From a virus, in the IMG/VR virus record IMGVR_UViG_3300043436_000890, positions 1 through 29,230 of that record: a DNA stretch of 29,230 nucleotides. One strand, 5' to 3'. Made by a program: the position numbers and the translations under genes. How positions within the stretch are numbered: position 1 is the first letter of the stretch; the number at the start of each line of letters is the position of its first letter. Positions 3,109-29,230 of this stretch are shown in pieces. The notes beneath the pieces were generated by a model, which made no database searches, was not told where the DNA came from, and saw only the letters and a program-made list of their open reading frames with translations.

Positions 3109-3974
3109 TATTTATAAGATATTTGAGCAGGTGTAACAATGAATTGAGAAACAAGATGAGCATCTGAACGATTGTCAAGAATGTGTCTCACCTTAAGATC
3201 TTTTGCTCTCAGAGGTTCCTTCTTAAAGGATCTCTTGCCATAGTCCATGTTTGATTGGTTTACAATCTTATCTATAGACAGGCTCTCGCACGTGCGTGTG
3301 AAGAGAGGAATTGATTTATTTTTAACCAAAGACCAGAACGTATTGTATTGATAGAAGTTATCACTCTTTGTATACGTAATCACTTTACTATCAGTATTAT
3401 ATATTGGATACTTCATGTATTCCTTTAGGTTGTTTGCAGGCTTTGGAACAAGCTCAAGCATACCTGTAGACTGTTGTCCATTGTACAATACAGCTTTATT
3501 AAACCAAACATTATCAGTTTCCACCTTGTCACACTCATCCATTACACCATCTGTATCAGCAAGATATCTATAAGCTTTTGTGTAGTCTTTTACATTCTGA
3601 AGAATCTCATCTTGGTATAGATATGTGAAAGGATATTCAATGACATAAGGTTCTATGTTTCCATAGAAGTAGTTGTATATTGTTGGGTTCTTCAAATGTT
3701 TCCATAGACATGCTGTTGATGTTTGTACATATTTGTATTCAGCATATTCAAATTCCGTGGTTTGCGTTAAAGGAAATGCCTTTCTTATATTACAATCACT
3801 TAACGATTCTAAAACAATTGCTGTAACATCGTTGTCTACAGAATATGCAACTCCTCTGATTAGAAGTCTTTTTGAAACATTTGTAGCCAAAACATTTCCA
3901 AAGTTATCCGTAATCTTGAAAGGTCCTGATCTAGGACCAGACTTCAACAGCTTTATGTTTATAACTTTTGACAT
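3108..3974 (-). CDS. Conserved crAss-like tail protein following the muzzle gene (crAssphage gene 75-like)
   Basis: A 288-aa protein in the position of the conserved, uncharacterised protein that follows the tail stabilisation gene in crAss-like genomes. Residues ~5-65 form a small module with the pattern I-x-L...G..SGPF...(V)SK..L..G...D-x-T.I...S...C, also present at the N-terminus of the 152-aa protein at 13731-14189. It is therefore probably a shared beta-rich adaptor domain (my comparison). The remainder is rich in aromatic residues and has no known motif. The gene begins 7 nt after the muzzle stop and its TAA overlaps the next start, placing it firmly in the tail operon. It is probably a tail or muzzle-associated component; a fibre adaptor is an alternative reading. 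Confidence 0.6.
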   Translation of the reverse strand: MSKVINIKLLKSGPRSGPFKITDNFGNVLATNVSKRLLIRGVAYSVDNDVTAIVLESLSDCNIRKAFPLTQTTEFEYAEYKYVQTSTACLWKHLKNPTIYNYFYGNIEPYVIEYPFTYLYQDEILQNVKDYTKAYRYLADTDGVMDECDKVETDNVWFNKAVLYNGQQSTGMLELVPKPANNLKEYMKYPIYNTDSKVITYTKSDNFYQYNTFWSLVKNKSIPLFTRTCESLSIDKIVNQSNMDYGKRSFKKEPLRAKDLKVRHILDNRSDAHLVSQFIVTPAQISYK

Positions 3975-3981
3975 CTTAGGA

Positions 3982-6900
3982 TTATATATTAAGGGTTGTA
4001 TTTACGCAAGTTCCAATTTGTGAAGCCCCTCCTACAGTATATCCAACGCTACCTTGCAATATCATTTCATAAGGACTTGTAGGATTAACTAGATAAATAT
4101 TTCCATCTGTGTCTACAATGAATATGTTACAGTTACATTCGTAGATAGCTGTAGGATTTGTTATCTCAGAAGGAATCAGTATATCAACCTCTGGTGTGCC
4201 TAATGCATAATCATACTGAGTTAAGTAGTAATCAAATGTTATTGTATCTTGAGAAATTACCAGAAGCTTATCTGTTGTTGTATACAACATGTTTCCAATT
4301 ACAACTCTTGTAGGTGTACTAACCTTTGTTGTAGATGTGGCAGTTGTAGTTGTAATATCCAATTCAACAATAGAAGATGTAGTTAGATCAAATGCAACAA
4401 GCGTTGTATCATTTATTGCTGTTATTCCTGAAGTTGTTGTAAATCCTGCAGGGAATGTTATATTCCTATTGAAGGTTGCTGAGAATGGAGAAAGTGCAAT
4501 ATCCCACTCATCAATCTGAGTGTTTATAGCCCAGAACTTAGTTGCAGAGTTTGCTATTCCATAAGAAGGAATGAATCCTGGTATAATCAATGTAGGATCA
4601 TATATTGGGATTTCATTTGGACTTATGTAATTAACTACATCAGTTGAGTTTAGGAATATTCCACAGCACTCAGTTACGTATGGCGGATTTGGAACAGGAA
4701 CTGGTACAGGTTCATCAGAACAAACACAGGTTTGTATATCTACAATCTCTCCTGATATAACTTGGTACATTTCTGGTCCTGTTACATTAAAGCTACTACC
4801 AATAGTATTTATAAAATACCAACCGTTTGGTAGGAACGTACATTCCATAGTATCTCCTTGGTATATAGAACTACCTATAGAAAGACTATTTGTAGAAACT
4901 ACAATAGAATAGATTTCAGGATTTCCAGGAATGCTTTGGTTCAAATATGTAGATGCAGCACATGCATCAGCAAAGCTTCCTGTACTATCAATGTCACTAT
5001 ATCCTACAACAAAATTATAATAAACTTGAGAAGGAGGTCTTTCACACATAGCTGGAGGAATTGGAGGGATTGGTGGAGGAACTGTTATATAAGCATCTCC
5101 AGAAAGTTCACAATTTGTAATTACAATATCTGCAGCGAAGTCACAATCTAATACAATGATTGGTTCTTCTTCTGTAGGTATCACATAAGTATTAGGAGGA
5201 ACTACAGTTCCAGGCTTATTTGTTCCACCTTTGTTTACAGAACCGCTAAACAAAGAGAATGATGTATCTAATGAAATATCATCACAACATCCATTTAGTC
5301 CTGAATAGAAGAAGTTATTCTCAGCTATGTACCAGTTAGGAAGGTAGCTGTGGAAACTAATCCAACTCTTGGTGTTGAAGTTGAATGATATTGTCCAAGA
5401 CTTGTTACAGAAGAACTCTTCATCTGTAAGATAGATTTGTGTTCTTACAGTTCCTCCTGCTAGAGATTCCTCATAGTAGAAGTTTTTGTCTGTAGGATCG
5501 TATACAATGTTCTTATCTAAAGGAACGTAGTCTAGTTTTGTCAATATGATTCTGTCGTATTTAGAATCATACACTCCATGTAAACCAGCTCCTGTGAAGT
5601 GGTTATCTGTATCAACTCCTTTTATCACGATTCTTTCTCCATTAACCACCTTTTCTAAATCAGGGAAATATTTATATATCTCAAATGCCAAGTGATCAGT
5701 GAACCATCTGTTCATTCCTGAACCAAAAGCAGTGAGATCTGTAGCACCATTGCCAGAGATGAGGAACACTTGTCCTCTCTTAGCATCTACAGTGATCTGT
5801 CCTTGAGGAATCTTCAAGAGCATTTTGTTCTGACTTCCTACATAACCAAGATCTGTTTCTGCAAAGTCAATAGGAGGAGCTGCTTTAAACAGTGTATCGT
5901 TTCCTAAGTATGCTGCTTGAGGATTACTAGTCTGAACTGTAAGCATAGTGTTATAAAGCAATGACTTGTTCTCAAATCGAGCAAGTACAGCTTTATTCTG
6001 TATACCATCCAGAGAAATAAGTTCTCCGTAATTCTGAGGGAAATCAAAAAATGAAACAGGACGATATATCAACCAACTATCTCTTTGATCATCAGAATAT
6101 ATTGCTCTGAAAGGGAAGTTTGTAAAACAAAGTTTCTCCTCCCAGTCTATAGGTAGATGTGAGAAGAAGTTCTCTTTATCATTCTGCTTAGAGAAAGTTA
6201 CATTATAGTAATATGTATTGTCCTGAGCGATAGTTACATTATCTTCTTGGAACCAATCATCAGGAATACCTGTGCTCACGTGAGGCCAGAAGTCACCTTC
6301 TTTATTATTAAATGCCTGACGAAGATCTGTATTTATAGAGGTTTCACAATAGAATGCTGGAATTCCGTACGCAAATTGGTACATCTTTCCATCATAATAC
6401 GTTCTTCCAGGATTTGAAAATCCACCTATAAACTGCTCCTGATTATTAGGGCAATCAAAGTTGTGAGCTTTGATTGATATAAAGTTTGTAAGCTGCGTGT
6501 TGTTTGCAGTACCATTTGTCAAAACAGATCTAGAAGAATGCCAGTATTGAGGATATGCAACATTACCAAGTTCATCATAGAACACATCAGAATCATCAGG
6601 AGCGTTTACACGATTGTCTATAAAGAAGGGAAGCTTTGTTTTAAATCCAAATCTACTAATGAAAGTATCTCCTCCAAATACAGTGAAAGATGCAGATCCT
6701 GTAATTGTACTAAAGTCTTTTTGGAATCCTGTATCAATTGTATCATAAGAATACATTTGACCCCATTGATTTACAAACGTATTTTTTAAAGAAGCATAAT
6801 ATACAACGCTATTTACATGAATGTTCTTTCCAGGATTGTTACAATCTGCTCCTCTGGAAGATTCTGAAAGTGTGAATCTTGTATCATCTTCAACAATAGG

Positions 6901-21441: not shown

Positions 21442-22539
21442 TTATACCGTAGTAGGAGTTCCTAATGCAGCAACCAAAATTGCTTCGATACCTGCTGTAG
21501 CTCCATTTGGAACAGCAATGATAACCATTGAATCTTCATGAATGTAATCACCCCACTGATAGGTTGATTCATCATATTGGTTAAACTTGATGTAGTAAAG
21601 TGTGTAAGCAATACCACTAGCTACCCATGATTCAAAGTTCTCATTGTAACCATTCATTCTGTAAAGATGCTTCAAGTAACCAGCTTGGTAGCTATAGTAG
21701 TTCTTTTCCAATTGAGCAACTTCAGCAGAAGTTCCACTAGGATAAGAAGCAATTTGAGTTACAGTTGATTCAGCAACAATGTTACAAGCATCAGCAACGA
21801 TGAAATCCGCAGTGGTAGCTGGACCAGTGTATACAAAGCTACGGAAATACATACGATCATACTCGTAAGGGAAAGCTGCAACATCACAAGGTTGTCCGTA
21901 AACAGTCAATGGTTTACCAGTGATAACCAATTTTGCAGCTGCTCCTGTACCAGTTGTAGTGAACGCAAAGAATGTGTTGAAGCTAATGTTGTCTGGGTTT
22001 GTACCAGGAGCTTGTGCTTCAAATGCTGCAATGATGTCAGCAATCAAAAGCTCAACGTCAACATTCTCACAAGGATCACCACCACATTCTAAGCAAGCTG
22101 CCTGAACAGTTACTGAACGAGTGAAACCATTGAAATACAATGTGTCAATGTAGCTAGAATGAGCACGTAAGGTAACTGTTACAATATCACCAGGTTTAAC
22201 GTTCCAAGTATCAATTTCTGTGATTTGAACGTTAGCTGTGGTAGAACCAACAGTTTTGTACCATTCAGTTACATTAGTTCGGTTAGAACCACCATTTTGA
22301 AGAGCACCAGCAATCTTGTCAGAACGCTTGCTTCCTTGCAAATAAGTGTTTGTTCTACCTTGAGCAACGTAGAAATACTTTACACCAGCACCAATAATTG
22401 TAGCAGCTGTTGCAGCACCGTAGTTAGGTAAGAAGATACCAAACTCACCAGCGTTAAGGTCTTGCGTAGGACTACCAGAGGTAGGTAATGTGTTACCAAC
22501 TGGCACTACGAAGAGCGTAGTTAATGAAAAATCAGCCAT
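21442..22539 (-). CDS. Probable abundant virion protein (head decoration/auxiliary candidate), 365 aa
   Basis: Structural protein with beta-rich composition, almost no lysine-rich stretches and a conserved feel in its C-terminal half (YYSYQAGYLKHLYRMNGYNE, YTLYYIKFNQYDESTYQWGD). A Cys cluster lies at C149, C152 and C157. Most of its arginine codons are CGT (for example in RSDKIAG, HSSY..., DRMYFRS), as in the major capsid gene and unlike the AGA used in most neighbours. This suggests selection for high expression and therefore an abundant virion component. A hairpin directly follows the gene. It is probably an auxiliary head or major tail-associated protein; the sequence does not show which. 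The start follows AAATAAATAAACAATGG, with no Shine-Dalgarno motif. Confidence 0.55.
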   Translation of the reverse strand: MADFSLTTLFVVPVGNTLPTSGSPTQDLNAGEFGIFLPNYGAATAATIIGAGVKYFYVAQGRTNTYLQGSKRSDKIAGALQNGGSNRTNVTEWYKTVGSTTANVQITEIDTWNVKPGDIVTVTLRAHSSYIDTLYFNGFTRSVTVQAACLECGGDPCENVDVELLIADIIAAFEAQAPGTNPDNISFNTFFAFTTTGTGAAAKLVITGKPLTVYGQPCDVAAFPYEYDRMYFRSFVYTGPATTADFIVADACNIVAESTVTQIASYPSGTSAEVAQLEKNYYSYQAGYLKHLYRMNGYNENFESWVASGIAYTLYYIKFNQYDESTYQWGDYIHEDSMVIIAVPNGATAGIEAILVAALGTPTTV

Positions 22540-24429: not shown

Positions 24430-25983
24430 TTAGAATTGTGGAATCTCTTCGATCAACACAGTGCGAGACAAATCTTCGATAAATACATCGCAACGGTCTT
24501 TCATCCAGATTTCATATCCTGGGAATTTGTTAGCAGAACTCATACCCTGAGATTTAGCAAAACCTAAGTGGTGACGAGTACCATCGATATAACCCCAAGT
24601 CATTGAAGGAGCACCCTTCATACGTACTTCACGGATGTTGTTTACCATTGAACCATCGCTCATTGGAGAAACGTCAAACACCATGAATACAGGAGTTGAT
24701 TTCTTGTTCTGACCAAATTCCAAGTTAGATTGTGGCAAATCAAGTTCTTTCAAGTGGATCAATTCAACACGACCTGTTTCACGTGTAACCATTGCATCGA
24801 AAGCAAAGTTATAAGTGATGTGTTGTCCTTCTCCTTGCATATAACGATTTCCAGAATCAGCCATGAAAGTAAGACCGCTATTTAAAGCGTCAGTCTTCAA
24901 AGCTTGTTGGAACACGTCAAAACCAGCTTCGTTTGTGTACATTTTAACCTTACGATCTTTAACATCCACACGACGATAGAACAAATCTCCAAATACAGAA
25001 CGGATCAAGTTAGCAGAGAACTCACCACGATTGTATTGAACCAAGTTACCATTGTTACGCATTCTGTGGTAAACACCTGCAGATGTACGCTTCAACTCTT
25101 GTTTAGAACCGTTAGTCTTAACAGTACCTGGCTTAGACCAGATCATACGCTTAACTTTCAATTCCAACATGCTCTTACGCATCCAGAACTCAATGAATGG
25201 TTCCCATTTAACATCATTACGAGTTAAAGGCAACTGATTTCTACGCTGAGGAGCATATACTAGGATGTCTAAAGGATTACCTTTGCTATCTCTCATCATT
25301 TTGTCATCAGCCCACTCAGTGATCTTGTGCTCATAACCATATGCAGAACCCAAAGATTCGAACATAGTGATTTGCTCACCCAAACGAGGAAGACCTAACA
25401 AGTCTTGATCGAATTCACCGATTGCAGCATCAACCAATTCCAATTCAACACCAATTTGTAAGAATGTATCACTTACGAAATCTACAGTTGGATTGTCAGT
25501 TACTAGGTTGAAAGTGTATAAATATCCCATGTTCCAAGGAACTGGATCTTTGATAACGTAGAAACGAGGACCATATTGACGAGAACCTACAGAAACGATA
25601 GCGTTCTTAGAGAATTCGTTAGTGTCCAATACCAATGTAAATTCCTGACCATCGATACCTGGTTTCTCCAGAGCTTCTGTAGCAGCAGGAATGTCGATGA
25701 TTTTAGGGAATTTGTAAGGAACAGCTACTTGCCATTTCCAAGCATCACTATTATTATCGATGTAATACGGTGTGCTTTTGTTAATCATGTCCAAGAAATC
25801 ATTGCTATACAATGAACTTTGGGTGTAGAGACTGATGATTTTCTTATCATAATCAGCAGGCTCTGTGCTGTGGAAGCTCTCTAGGTGGTTAGCATCAGTG
25901 AGTTTGCCCACAGCACGCTTGTCCATAGAGGCCACTCTCGCATAAGTGAATCCAGTTAAACCTGGAATTGTTTGAATTGCCAT
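24430..25983 (-). CDS. Major capsid protein (crAss family, HK97-like fold expected), 517 aa
   Basis: Major capsid protein of a crAss-like phage, recognised by its sequence style and position after the scaffold-like gene. Segments typical of the family include IPGLTGFTYARVASMDKRAV (residues 6-25), SLYTQSSLYSNDFLDMINKS, SVGSRQYGPRFYVIKDPVPW and, near the C-terminus, DVSPMSDGSMVNNIREVRMK. The length is in the usual range (~490-520). The HK97 fold is known for the family, not shown here. About four in five arginine codons are CGT, in contrast with AGA in most neighbours, consistent with very high expression. PGLTGFTYAR at residues 7-16 recurs in the cargo protein. The gene is followed by a long GC-rich hairpin and preceded 32 nt upstream by the scaffold stop. 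Confidence 0.9.
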   Translation of the reverse strand: MAIQTIPGLTGFTYARVASMDKRAVGKLTDANHLESFHSTEPADYDKKIISLYTQSSLYSNDFLDMINKSTPYYIDNNSDAWKWQVAVPYKFPKIIDIPAATEALEKPGIDGQEFTLVLDTNEFSKNAIVSVGSRQYGPRFYVIKDPVPWNMGYLYTFNLVTDNPTVDFVSDTFLQIGVELELVDAAIGEFDQDLLGLPRLGEQITMFESLGSAYGYEHKITEWADDKMMRDSKGNPLDILVYAPQRRNQLPLTRNDVKWEPFIEFWMRKSMLELKVKRMIWSKPGTVKTNGSKQELKRTSAGVYHRMRNNGNLVQYNRGEFSANLIRSVFGDLFYRRVDVKDRKVKMYTNEAGFDVFQQALKTDALNSGLTFMADSGNRYMQGEGQHITYNFAFDAMVTRETGRVELIHLKELDLPQSNLEFGQNKKSTPVFMVFDVSPMSDGSMVNNIREVRMKGAPSMTWGYIDGTRHHLGFAKSQGMSSANKFPGYEIWMKDRCDVFIEDLSRTVLIEEIPQF

Positions 25984-27284: not shown

Positions 27285-27305
27285 ATGTAGTTGTATTTAT
27301 TTGGT
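27285..27305 (-). promoter_or_regulatory. Repeated A-rich translation leader (scaffold gene)
   Basis: The leader before the scaffold ATGG begins ACCAAATAAATA and ends CAACTACAT, differing from that of the 322-aa gene only by two inserted bases. It contains no Shine-Dalgarno motif. Confidence 0.55.
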
Positions 27306-27313
27306 TTTCAATG

Positions 27314-27344
27314 TAAAAGTATGTAATAGCTTCGTAACTGCAAA
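27314..27344 (-). promoter_or_regulatory. Candidate Bacteroidota promoter for the scaffold-capsid operon
   Basis: The minus strand has TTTG (27341-27344), a 19-nt spacer, then TACTTTTA (27314-27321). The Bacteroides consensus is TTTG-N19-21-TAnnTTTG, so only the last base of the -7 box differs. It lies in the 118-nt gap between the SPFH gene and the scaffold gene. It would allow scaffold and capsid to be made in excess over portal. Confidence 0.55.
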
Positions 27345-27402
27345 GAGATGAAACACTATATAAATCAATTTTGTGGTTAATATAGCATTAATGTATTTTC
27401 TT

Positions 27403-27933
27403 CTAATCAAGTTTGTTTGTAACTACATCATTTATTAGTCTGAAACTCCTGATAGGTGCTAAATCAGTGAGTGTCACTTGACTAATTTCCACTCCCCACT
27501 TTTTAACTTCCACTCTAGCTTTCTTTGTTAGAATATTATCTATCTCTGGATCAATACACTCTTCTACAGTCTTTGACATAATAATATTCTTGATGATGCT
27601 TTGGGTCATATCTGATATAGCATCTTGTGCGTCATACACCTCTAATAGAAAAACTTTGACATCTGCTATCTTATATTTAACCACTCCCTTCACTACAATA
27701 TTCTGTTTGTCAATAGTGTATAACGATTGAGCTGGTAAGCTTAGTGTAGTTGTAACTGTATATTGTGTAATAACTTCATCAAGTATTGGTATCTTGAAGT
27801 GAATTCCAGGAGTGATTACCTTTTTAAATTTACCTATTCTATTGATAACACCTTCCTCATAAGGATTAACAATAACAAAAGGAGCTAGTAGACTAGCCCA
27901 ATTTGTTATTATATCTATGAGTTTTTCAAACAT
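27403..27933 (-). CDS. SPFH/band-7 (stomatin/prohibitin-like) domain protein, 176 aa
   Basis: The sequence is clearly an SPFH domain: EGVINRIGKFKKVITPGIHF at residues 27-46, IPILDEVITQYTVTTTLSLP, then QNIVVKGVVKYKIADV (77-92), and WGVEISQVTLTDLAPIRSFR (146-165). The family forms membrane-bound oligomeric rings or cages (stomatin, prohibitin, HflK/HflC). Here the protein is essentially the domain alone, with a short hydrophobic N-terminus (IITNWASLLAPFVIV, 8-22) that may insert into or lie along a membrane; it lacks the long C-terminal coiled coil of flotillins. It sits between portal and scaffold, and its ATG overlaps the portal stop (TAATG at 27931-27935). It ends in TAG, the only one here. 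Role unknown: it could organise assembly at the membrane, or interfere with the host FtsH-HflKC system (both are speculation). Confidence 0.85.
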   Translation of the reverse strand: MFEKLIDIITNWASLLAPFVIVNPYEEGVINRIGKFKKVITPGIHFKIPILDEVITQYTVTTTLSLPAQSLYTIDKQNIVVKGVVKYKIADVKVFLLEVYDAQDAISDMTQSIIKNIIMSKTVEECIDPEIDNILTKKARVEVKKWGVEISQVTLTDLAPIRSFRLINDVVTNKLD

Positions 27934-29230
27934 TATTTACCTTTTTTAGATGCTCTGTTCTTAGCATTTTCTTTTGCAATAGCAAGATCGTTTGCTTGGT
28001 TCTCTCTAGCCACTTGGAGCTTTTCTCTCTCAATTGCTAATTTATCAGCAGCTTGTTTGTTCTTAGCACCAATATCAGCCATCTTCATTTGATAATCTCT
28101 TGAAGCTTTCTGTTGTTCATTTGCCAACTTGCTCACCTCAAAAACATCAGGTACTGTGTTTTGATTAATGTCTTCGCTTTCTACATTACCAAATCCTGTA
28201 GCTTGAATGATAGCAATCTCTTTCTTATTGATTCTATCAAGTTCTTTTTGGTAATCATCGTGTGCCAATTTCTCTTCAGCTTGTTGCTGTTGTAACTGCA
28301 ATTGAGCTTGTGCTTGTTCAGCTTGTTGTTGCTGCTGTTGTTGTTGCAATTGCATTTGCTGATTTTGCATAGCTTCTTGTCTTTCTTTCAGAGTTTTAAA
28401 CACCTTCTTCATCTGACGTACAGACTTGGTGCTATACAACTCAATGATATCGTACAATGAACCACCATTCTGAATAACAGCCTGAGACAATGCTCTAATC
28501 TCTTGGAACATCTGATTATCTTCAGGTCTGTTAGTAAGGAACACTTTGAGATCACGGAATCTGAGTTCAGAACCATTAACCTGTACAAAAGCTGATTCTC
28601 CTTCAGACGTAATGTATGATAGGGTGGATTGTGGTTTTTTGCTCTCAATATACAAAGCTGCATCAATAATTGCTTGATACAATTGGCCCATTATATATTC
28701 ATGAGCTACAAACAAAGGTTCTGTTTGAGCATATGATTGTTGAATAGCTGTACTTGTACCTGTTGCAGATTCACTAGCTGTTACAGATCCCATTCTTTGT
28801 CTTGACATACCTACAAGTTCCCAACACTCATTCTTCAATTGCATAGCAAGATTGTAACGAGATTGAATCTCCTGTGTACGTGTAAGATCGATATCTCTAA
28901 ACTGGTTAAATGAGCTTGGAGATTTTAGGTTTTCAGGACTATCGTCTATAAATACAACACCTCTGTTACGTGCTTCCATTTCCCAAACATCTAATGCATC
29001 TTGTGCATCACCATCTTTTGGAACTGGTACGTGTCTGATAGATGTCAAATAAACCTTACCAACTTCTTTCTCAAGGAGTTTGTAAAGCTGGTTCATGCAG
29101 ACATTATATAACACCTGGAAAGGTTTCATCATGTCTACAAGACTCTTAGCTTCTGTATTTTTAACTTCGTGAGTTATACCTATAATAGGACAATAGTTAA
29201 GAAGTTTGAATGGTTTGATGTGGTAGATGT
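27933..29230 (-). CDS. Portal protein (crAss family), C-terminal part; N-terminus off the right edge
   Basis: The frame is open to the right edge, continuing upstream of the first in-window ATG (29132), so the true start lies outside. The readable ~432 codons include SLVDMMKPFQVLYNVCMNQL, YLTSIRHVPVPKDGDAQDAL, SRYNLAMQLKNECWELVGMS and SYAQTEPLFVAHEYIMGQLY, which belong to the portal of crAss-like phages. The portal forms the dodecameric DNA-packaging vertex. The C-terminal ~170 residues are an unusual Gln-rich coiled-coil tail, including eight consecutive Gln, then charged heptads (KLAHDDYQKELDRINKKE, KLAIEREKLQVARENQ) and a basic end. This tail probably reaches the capsid interior. The stop overlaps the SPFH start. 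Confidence 0.85.
   Translation of the reverse strand, partial: IYHIKPFKLLNYCPIIGITHEVKNTEAKSLVDMMKPFQVLYNVCMNQLYKLLEKEVGKVYLTSIRHVPVPKDGDAQDALDVWEMEARNRGVVFIDDSPENLKSPSSFNQFRDIDLTRTQEIQSRYNLAMQLKNECWELVGMSRQRMGSVTASESATGTSTAIQQSYAQTEPLFVAHEYIMGQLYQAIIDAALYIESKKPQSTLSYITSEGESAFVQVNGSELRFRDLKVFLTNRPEDNQMFQEIRALSQAVIQNGGSLYDIIELYSTKSVRQMKKVFKTLKERQEAMQNQQMQLQQQQQQQQAEQAQAQLQLQQQQAEEKLAHDDYQKELDRINKKEIAIIQATGFGNVESEDINQNTVPDVFEVSKLANEQQKASRDYQMKMADIGAKNKQAADKLAIEREKLQVARENQANDLAIAKENAKNRASKKGK
28323..28346 (-). repeat. CAA/CAG trinucleotide repeat (poly-Gln) in the portal tail
   Basis: Eight consecutive glutamine codons (CAA and CAG mixed) inside a broader Gln-rich region of the portal C-terminus. 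Interruption by two CAG codons reduces slippage, but the tract length could vary between isolates in multiples of one residue. Confidence 0.75.

Follow-up and report, generated by a model that had tools for sequence, protein, structure and literature searches.

SPFH genes of phages and the moron concept are both already known, and in phage CSP3 the SPFH gene orf75 has been described as a moron (PMC10269572). The protein gp91 of phage crAss001 is annotated as SPFH. The gene directly 3' of the crAss001 portal gene encodes a head-fibre protein, gp21 (PMC10172136). Here we analysed a stretch of viral DNA of 29,230 nucleotides, referred to throughout as the window, in which a short SPFH gene lies between a portal gene and a putative scaffold gene, with the major capsid gene following (Table 1). 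In the literature searched (SPFH, stomatin, prohibitin) neither a mini-SPFH in crAss-like phages, nor a cargo slot between portal and scaffold genes, nor alternation of such a gene with a zincin-like pair was described. The gene is very probably accessory (moron-like) exchange cargo of an aquatic crAss-like clade, housed in a slot that extends from the portal stop to the putative scaffold promoter.

Results

The ORF matches Pfam Band_7 (PF01145) with E = 4.8e-24 and 85.8 bits (cut-off 23.6), and in its AF2 model (mean pLDDT 80) residues 1-171 take the fold of the SPFH domains of stomatin, QmcA, HflK/C and prohibitin. Score and fold together place the 176-aa protein in the SPFH/Band_7 superfamily, which confirms the identity proposed for it in the preliminary description. 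Its architecture is an N-terminal amphipathic helix followed by the SPFH domain, and its C-terminal end falls where the coiled coil of stomatin begins. This coiled coil, which forms the cage wall and is typical of full-length family members and not of the domain itself, is missing, and all intact members of the window type (type A) are 176 aa long; sequence and model thus agree with the earlier remark on the shortness of the protein and its lack of a coiled-coil tail.

Residues 1-18 have a hydrophobic moment of 0.59 in the window protein and of 0.55-0.71 across 25 type A sequences, with helices at residues 2-10 and 12-16 of the model. No classical transmembrane segment is predicted at the N-terminus by hydropathy or by the model, and the KD19 maximum of the protein is 1.56. 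The model is poor over the last 13 residues despite their high conservation, and they fall within a highly conserved LTD(L/I)AP(I)RS(F/Y)R..NKLD segment whose columns are invariant or near-invariant. The mini-SPFH is under strong purifying selection, with a dN/dS of ~0.05 that is similar to that of the capsid gene.

Table 1. Positions of the mini-SPFH gene, its neighbours and related features (window coordinates unless a locus is named).
Feature	Position	Strand	Details
Mini-SPFH (Band_7), cargo gene	27403-27933	(-)	176 aa, ATG start
N-terminal amphipathic helix, predicted in-plane membrane anchor	27880-27933	(-)	codons 1-18, conserved
C-terminal tail, unstructured in model	27403-27444	(-)	codons 164-176 + stop; pLDDT <50 at 164-176
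Portal protein, C-terminal part, cut by window end	27933-29228	(-)	P22_portal 1.7e-10; phrog_6547 8.5e-51
Putative scaffold, acidic, 422 aa	26016-27284	(-)	phrog_16294 6.7e-9; position 5' of capsid gene
crAss-type major capsid protein	24430-25983	(-)	Pfam Crass_capsid 1.8e-27; phrog_11589
Conserved promoter-like region, downstream slot border	27285-27402	(-)	alignment of 118 loci; pairwise breakpoints
12-mer AATGCTATATTA	27378-27389	(-)	<=160 bp before scaffold gene in 120/136 loci
TTTG-N19-TACTTTTA	27314-27344	(-)	conserved columns
Zincin cassette loci	L124:5085-5550; L073, L087, L091, L094, L111-L113, L122, L126, L155-L234		

The portal ORF is of P22/crAss type, and the Crass_capsid and phrog_6547 matches identify the phage as Crassvirales-type. 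The putative scaffold is weakly similar to crAss001 gp31 (E = 0.002), and phrog_16294, which it matches, has no assigned function. Among the Pfam matches of ten late-region proteins scanned there was no NfeD/STOPP neighbour, the genes on either side of the SPFH gene being those for the portal and the putative scaffold. Another late-region protein, encoded at 21442-22539 (-), gave a weak Peptidase_A4 match (E = 0.0055) that lies below the cut-off.

In the window the portal stop TAA overlaps the SPFH start codon as TAATG (...GGTAAATAATGTTTG...), which verifies the coupling noted earlier. Searching with the SPFH protein recovered viral relatives at 58 loci (58-94% identity), and at all of these the order portal, SPFH, scaffold, capsid is kept as far as the contigs reach. 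Because 58 loci keep this gene order, and because of the low dN/dS, the locus must reflect more than chance, and the fixed position claimed for the gene holds in that every short SPFH found in the crAss-like clade occupies the portal-scaffold slot. The TAATG geometry occurs with SPFH-A at 44 loci and also with a pair of zincin-like genes at 14 loci, and the coupling is therefore a property of the slot and not a specific link between SPFH and portal.

The preliminary description had also placed the gene within a single head-assembly operon. This needs correction, in that a promoter-like stretch of ~120 bp separates the SPFH gene from the scaffold and capsid genes. As this stretch is conserved 5' of the scaffold gene, the SPFH gene is probably the tail end of a portal unit and not the middle of a head operon. 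Across loci, AATGCTATATTA and then TTTG-N19-TANNTTTTA lie 5' of the scaffold gene, and both this motif and the form found in the window resemble the Bacteroidota -33/-7 promoter consensus (TTTG / TANNTTTG). Such a resemblance points to a host among the Bacteroidota and to scaffold and capsid genes with a promoter of their own. The 12-mer is present in a single copy in the window and is absent from the rest of the 1.68 Mb of the 136 loci; a recurrent late promoter was considered and rejected, since AATGCTATATTA recurs neither in the window nor elsewhere in the loci, and it is possibly an activator site or another single-copy signal. Promoter matches in the SPFH region were no more frequent than in shuffles, terminator-like sites numbered 3 against 1.5 expected, with none at the end of the SPFH gene, and Rfam gave no match in the region.

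Since a search with the SPFH protein favours loci that carry the gene, a reverse search was run with the capsid protein. In the 81 non-redundant loci found in this way, the portal-scaffold slot was empty in 43 and held SPFH-A in 23, SPFH-B (a divergent SPFH of about 28% identity) in 5, the zincin pair in 9 and another ORF in 1, while the 51 clusters formed at 95% core identity comprised 26 empty, 18 SPFH, 6 zincin pair and 1 other, although part of the loci were ranked by similarity to a distant capsid protein and the exact proportions depend on sampling. An SPFH gene is thus present in 28/81 loci and 18/51 clusters, and not in all close relatives that share the same head genes. Empty slots measure about 50-153 bp. 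The preliminary description had held that sporadic presence together with occurrence in other genomic positions would count against its proposal; presence is indeed sporadic, at about a third of relatives, but the position is always the portal-scaffold slot.

Twelve records of 91-117 kb (classed linear; completeness likely) have no Band_7 match anywhere, while ten records of 95-125 kb carry a Band_7 gene at the slot. The zincin pair was present in 3/20 records tested, none of those three with SPFH, and the two cargos were never found in one genome. In the nearest named relatives, Leptolyngbya phage Lbo-JY46 and Cellulophaga phage phi14:2, no gene separates the portal from the scaffold position, and in crAss001 genes for head fibres, tail and other functions take up about 13 kb of this interval. 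At one locus (L066:4628-5050) an endonuclease VII-type, possibly homing, gene precedes the SPFH gene in the slot. An ORF of 64-68 aa (MLEFRNPIPVVVE...) between portal and SPFH at L024:5797-5997, L033:5802-6008, L035:558-752 and L255:3817-4023 is a further cargo gene.

On a core tree built from the portal, the capsid and two neighbouring proteins, slot state changes 16 times against a shuffled mean of 51.6, and SPFH-A alone requires 13 changes, at least 10 of them forced by well-supported branches. Close sisters differ in slot state, with SPFH in L005/L006 and the zincin pair in L166, and a further difference between L013 and L175. In pairwise DNA alignments the portal end is conserved and its stop codon marks an abrupt fall of identity to the background level; identity returns before the scaffold gene at TTAGAGTAAA...AATGCTATATTA, an element also written TTAGAGTAAA...AATGCTATATTAT. 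Alleles are exchanged as well, since the core proteins of L025 and L101/L106 are 6% different and their SPFH proteins 30%, and the zincin genes of L122 and L124 are identical though the core differs by 16%. Variable presence, a fixed junction, clean borders and exchange are all found at this slot, as in moron or accessory cargo.

The zincin pair consists of genes of ~79 and ~89 aa, the second with a strictly conserved LHEHFHLKHPDWSE (HEHFH, HExxH zincin-like), and has no convincing relative in Pfam, PHROG, NCBIfam or PDB. Its AF2 model, with a mean pLDDT of 61, is of too low quality to speak for a zincin fold and there is no sequence relative in PDB, so the HEHFH motif stands as sequence evidence only. 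The pair is common to crAss-like phages and to phages of ~30-35 kb, and the members of the latter group that carry SPFH-B or the zincin pair have neither a crAss capsid nor a crAss portal. There the cargo lies 3' of an exonuclease or metallophosphoesterase gene in 8/8 SPFH-B and 39/39 zincin loci with enough upstream sequence, close to the endopeptidase/lysis region, with an M15 endopeptidase and small membrane proteins just upstream. The alternation of two unrelated cargos therefore recurs at an equivalent position in an unrelated phage group, and we propose that the two are functionally equivalent, position being the sole basis. Directly 5' of SPFH-B in the small phages there is a 139-aa protein with a hydrophobic N-terminus (L145:4589-5008, L150:4580-4999), which belongs to phrog_1365 (unknown function), is a possible SPFH-B partner and is not seen in the crAss-like slot.

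In the genome contigs and plasmids searched no cellular relative exceeded ~32% identity over most of the domain, the best cellular matches being about 25-32% identical as against 58-94% within the viral family. The short viral SPFHs (A, B and ctgrD200) form a group separate, at 93/93 support, from the cellular and long phage proteins sampled, on long branches that leave the detail uncertain. An AU test (p = 0.20, with the B row L145 entered as A) did not reject a monophyletic origin of types A and B. These results uphold the earlier suggestion of a dedicated viral version, in that no closer cellular relative turned up in the collections searched. The ctgrD200 gene (L332:3935-4498), from an unrelated podovirus, is likewise a short SPFH without coiled coil and lies directly 3' of the terminase large-subunit gene.

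Discussion

The explanation that best accounts for these observations as a whole, to which we assign a probability of about 0.6, is an accessory cargo gene whose product acts at the host membrane late in infection. The TAATG overlap would permit late expression through translational reinitiation while leaving the scaffold/capsid promoter undisturbed, and the amphipathic N-terminal helix, for which membrane binding is predicted, would keep the SPFH domain on the cytoplasm-facing, inner side of the host membrane. Since it has no coiled coil to build a cage wall, the mini-SPFH is predicted to form a small ring, or to co-assemble with and disturb a host SPFH assembly that could be HflK/C-, QmcA- or stomatin-like. 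HflK/C-FtsH and stomatin/QmcA are the natural candidates for a target within the SPFH family. The outcome would be altered FtsH-type proteolysis or altered local membrane properties late in infection, from which the phage could benefit through host takeover, counter-defence or the timing of lysis, and the zincin pair would meet a host pressure of this kind by other means. We put forward this mechanism of host membrane and SPFH-protease action tentatively. More tentative still is the wider proposal that the mini-SPFH family and the zincin-like pair are alternative tools against one host function linked to membranes or proteolysis, swapped at a dedicated slot, with the alternation repeated in unrelated phages; on this proposal the mini-SPFH may poison or cap host SPFH-protease assemblies.

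One concrete version of action at the host membrane, a factor at the inner membrane that governs lysis timing or superinfection exclusion, is rather unlikely. The late position and predicted membrane-type N-terminus of the mini-SPFH would suit such a role, and so would the setting of SPFH-B and the zincin pair in the ~30-35 kb phages, close to the lysis module and just 3' of genes for small membrane proteins and an M15 endopeptidase; however, no lysis gene was recognised beside the slot in the crAss-like clade, and neither Pfam, PHROGs and NCBIfam nor PADLOC, which gave no convincing match, revealed similarity to known lysis or exclusion proteins. An accessory virion or head-decoration protein, comparable to the optional head fibre gp21 found 3' of the crAss001 portal, is improbable. 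Optional decoration proteins are common in phages, the slot lies in the late structural region, and crAss001 likewise has genes for head fibres and tail between portal and scaffold, but an SPFH domain preceded by an amphipathic helix of membrane type does not resemble a decoration protein, and trading places with a zincin-like pair is at odds with decoration.

The preliminary description had favoured a part in building the capsid over a moron: the SPFH protein would provide the membrane platform on which the portal nucleates, or would keep a host protease in check while heads are assembled. Wherever a relative carries the gene, it overlaps or closely follows the portal stop and precedes scaffold and capsid, and it is strongly selected, all of which would accord with such a role. 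Against it, the gene is missing from ~2/3 of the relatives in the capsid search, whose capsid proteins are mostly 95-97% identical, and from the 12 near-full-length records of ~110 kb; unrelated genes replace it at the same coupling geometry, the swap with the zincin-like pair occurring between near-identical phages; and in unrelated phages SPFH-B sits behind a lysis/exonuclease module and not beside the portal. This part of the earlier proposal is not supported and is very improbable, and the reverse search together with the records devoid of Band_7 rejects head-assembly essentiality. That the phage recently acquired a stomatin or HflK gene from its host is hardly credible and was rejected, for although SPFH genes are near-universal in bacteria and do occur as morons of phages (CSP3 orf75, PMC10269572), no close cellular relative was found in the collections searched and the short viral forms stand apart from the sampled cellular SPFHs both in identity and in the tree.

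The reading as accessory cargo that acts at the host membrane takes a testable form, as the exchange slot belongs to a widespread aquatic crAss-like clade and offers natural sister pairs with SPFH, the zincin pair or nothing. That two unrelated phage groups have these two alternatives at equivalent positions points to a shared host pressure, such as defence or a membrane quality-control complex, and a minimal SPFH without cage wall would offer a natural and useful means to probe how SPFH rings and FtsH-type proteases function.

Comparison with known systems

With stomatin and QmcA the window protein shares the SPFH1-SPFH2 fold over residues 1-171 (best PDB matches 9zd2, TMq 0.77, and 8gn9, VIA Z 17.3 over 102 residues), but identity is only about 24%, it has neither coiled coil nor C-terminal domain, an amphipathic helix takes the place of the membrane hairpin, and no NfeD partner adjoins it. 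The FtsH modulators HflK and HflC likewise share the SPFH domain (NCBIfam hflK, 71.8 bits), although scores remain below the equivalog cut-offs for both hflK (71.8 versus 159.4) and hflC (48 versus 134.4); the window SPFH is a single protein of half the length, and no partner subunit or FtsH was recognised beside its gene in the window.

The long phage SPFHs (OLIVR1, Skarpretter, Rhizobium phages and crAss001 gp91) are also phage-encoded SPFH domains but differ in their size of about 280-410 aa, their extended C-terminal tails, their genomic positions and their distance in the tree. A form of ~405 aa is shared by crAss001 and the window relative G010, and G010 also has the slot SPFH; longer genes of this kind (about 260-405 aa) elsewhere in crAss-like genomes are found at L346:2262-3479 (G010), 93381-94598 in crAss001 (gp91) and 3866-4648 in Lbo-JY46. 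Closer in architecture are two short, one-domain phage proteins, the prohibitin-like protein of ctgrD200 (187 aa) and UniProt A0A6J7WFI0 (173 aa; TMq 0.85), which belong to other phages and are about 26-28% identical to ours. Finally, the slot SPFH differs from phage moron genes in being coupled to the portal stop, and in that a promoter and terminator of its own were not recognised, but it has in common with them variable presence, exact insertion between conserved genes and exchange between lineages.
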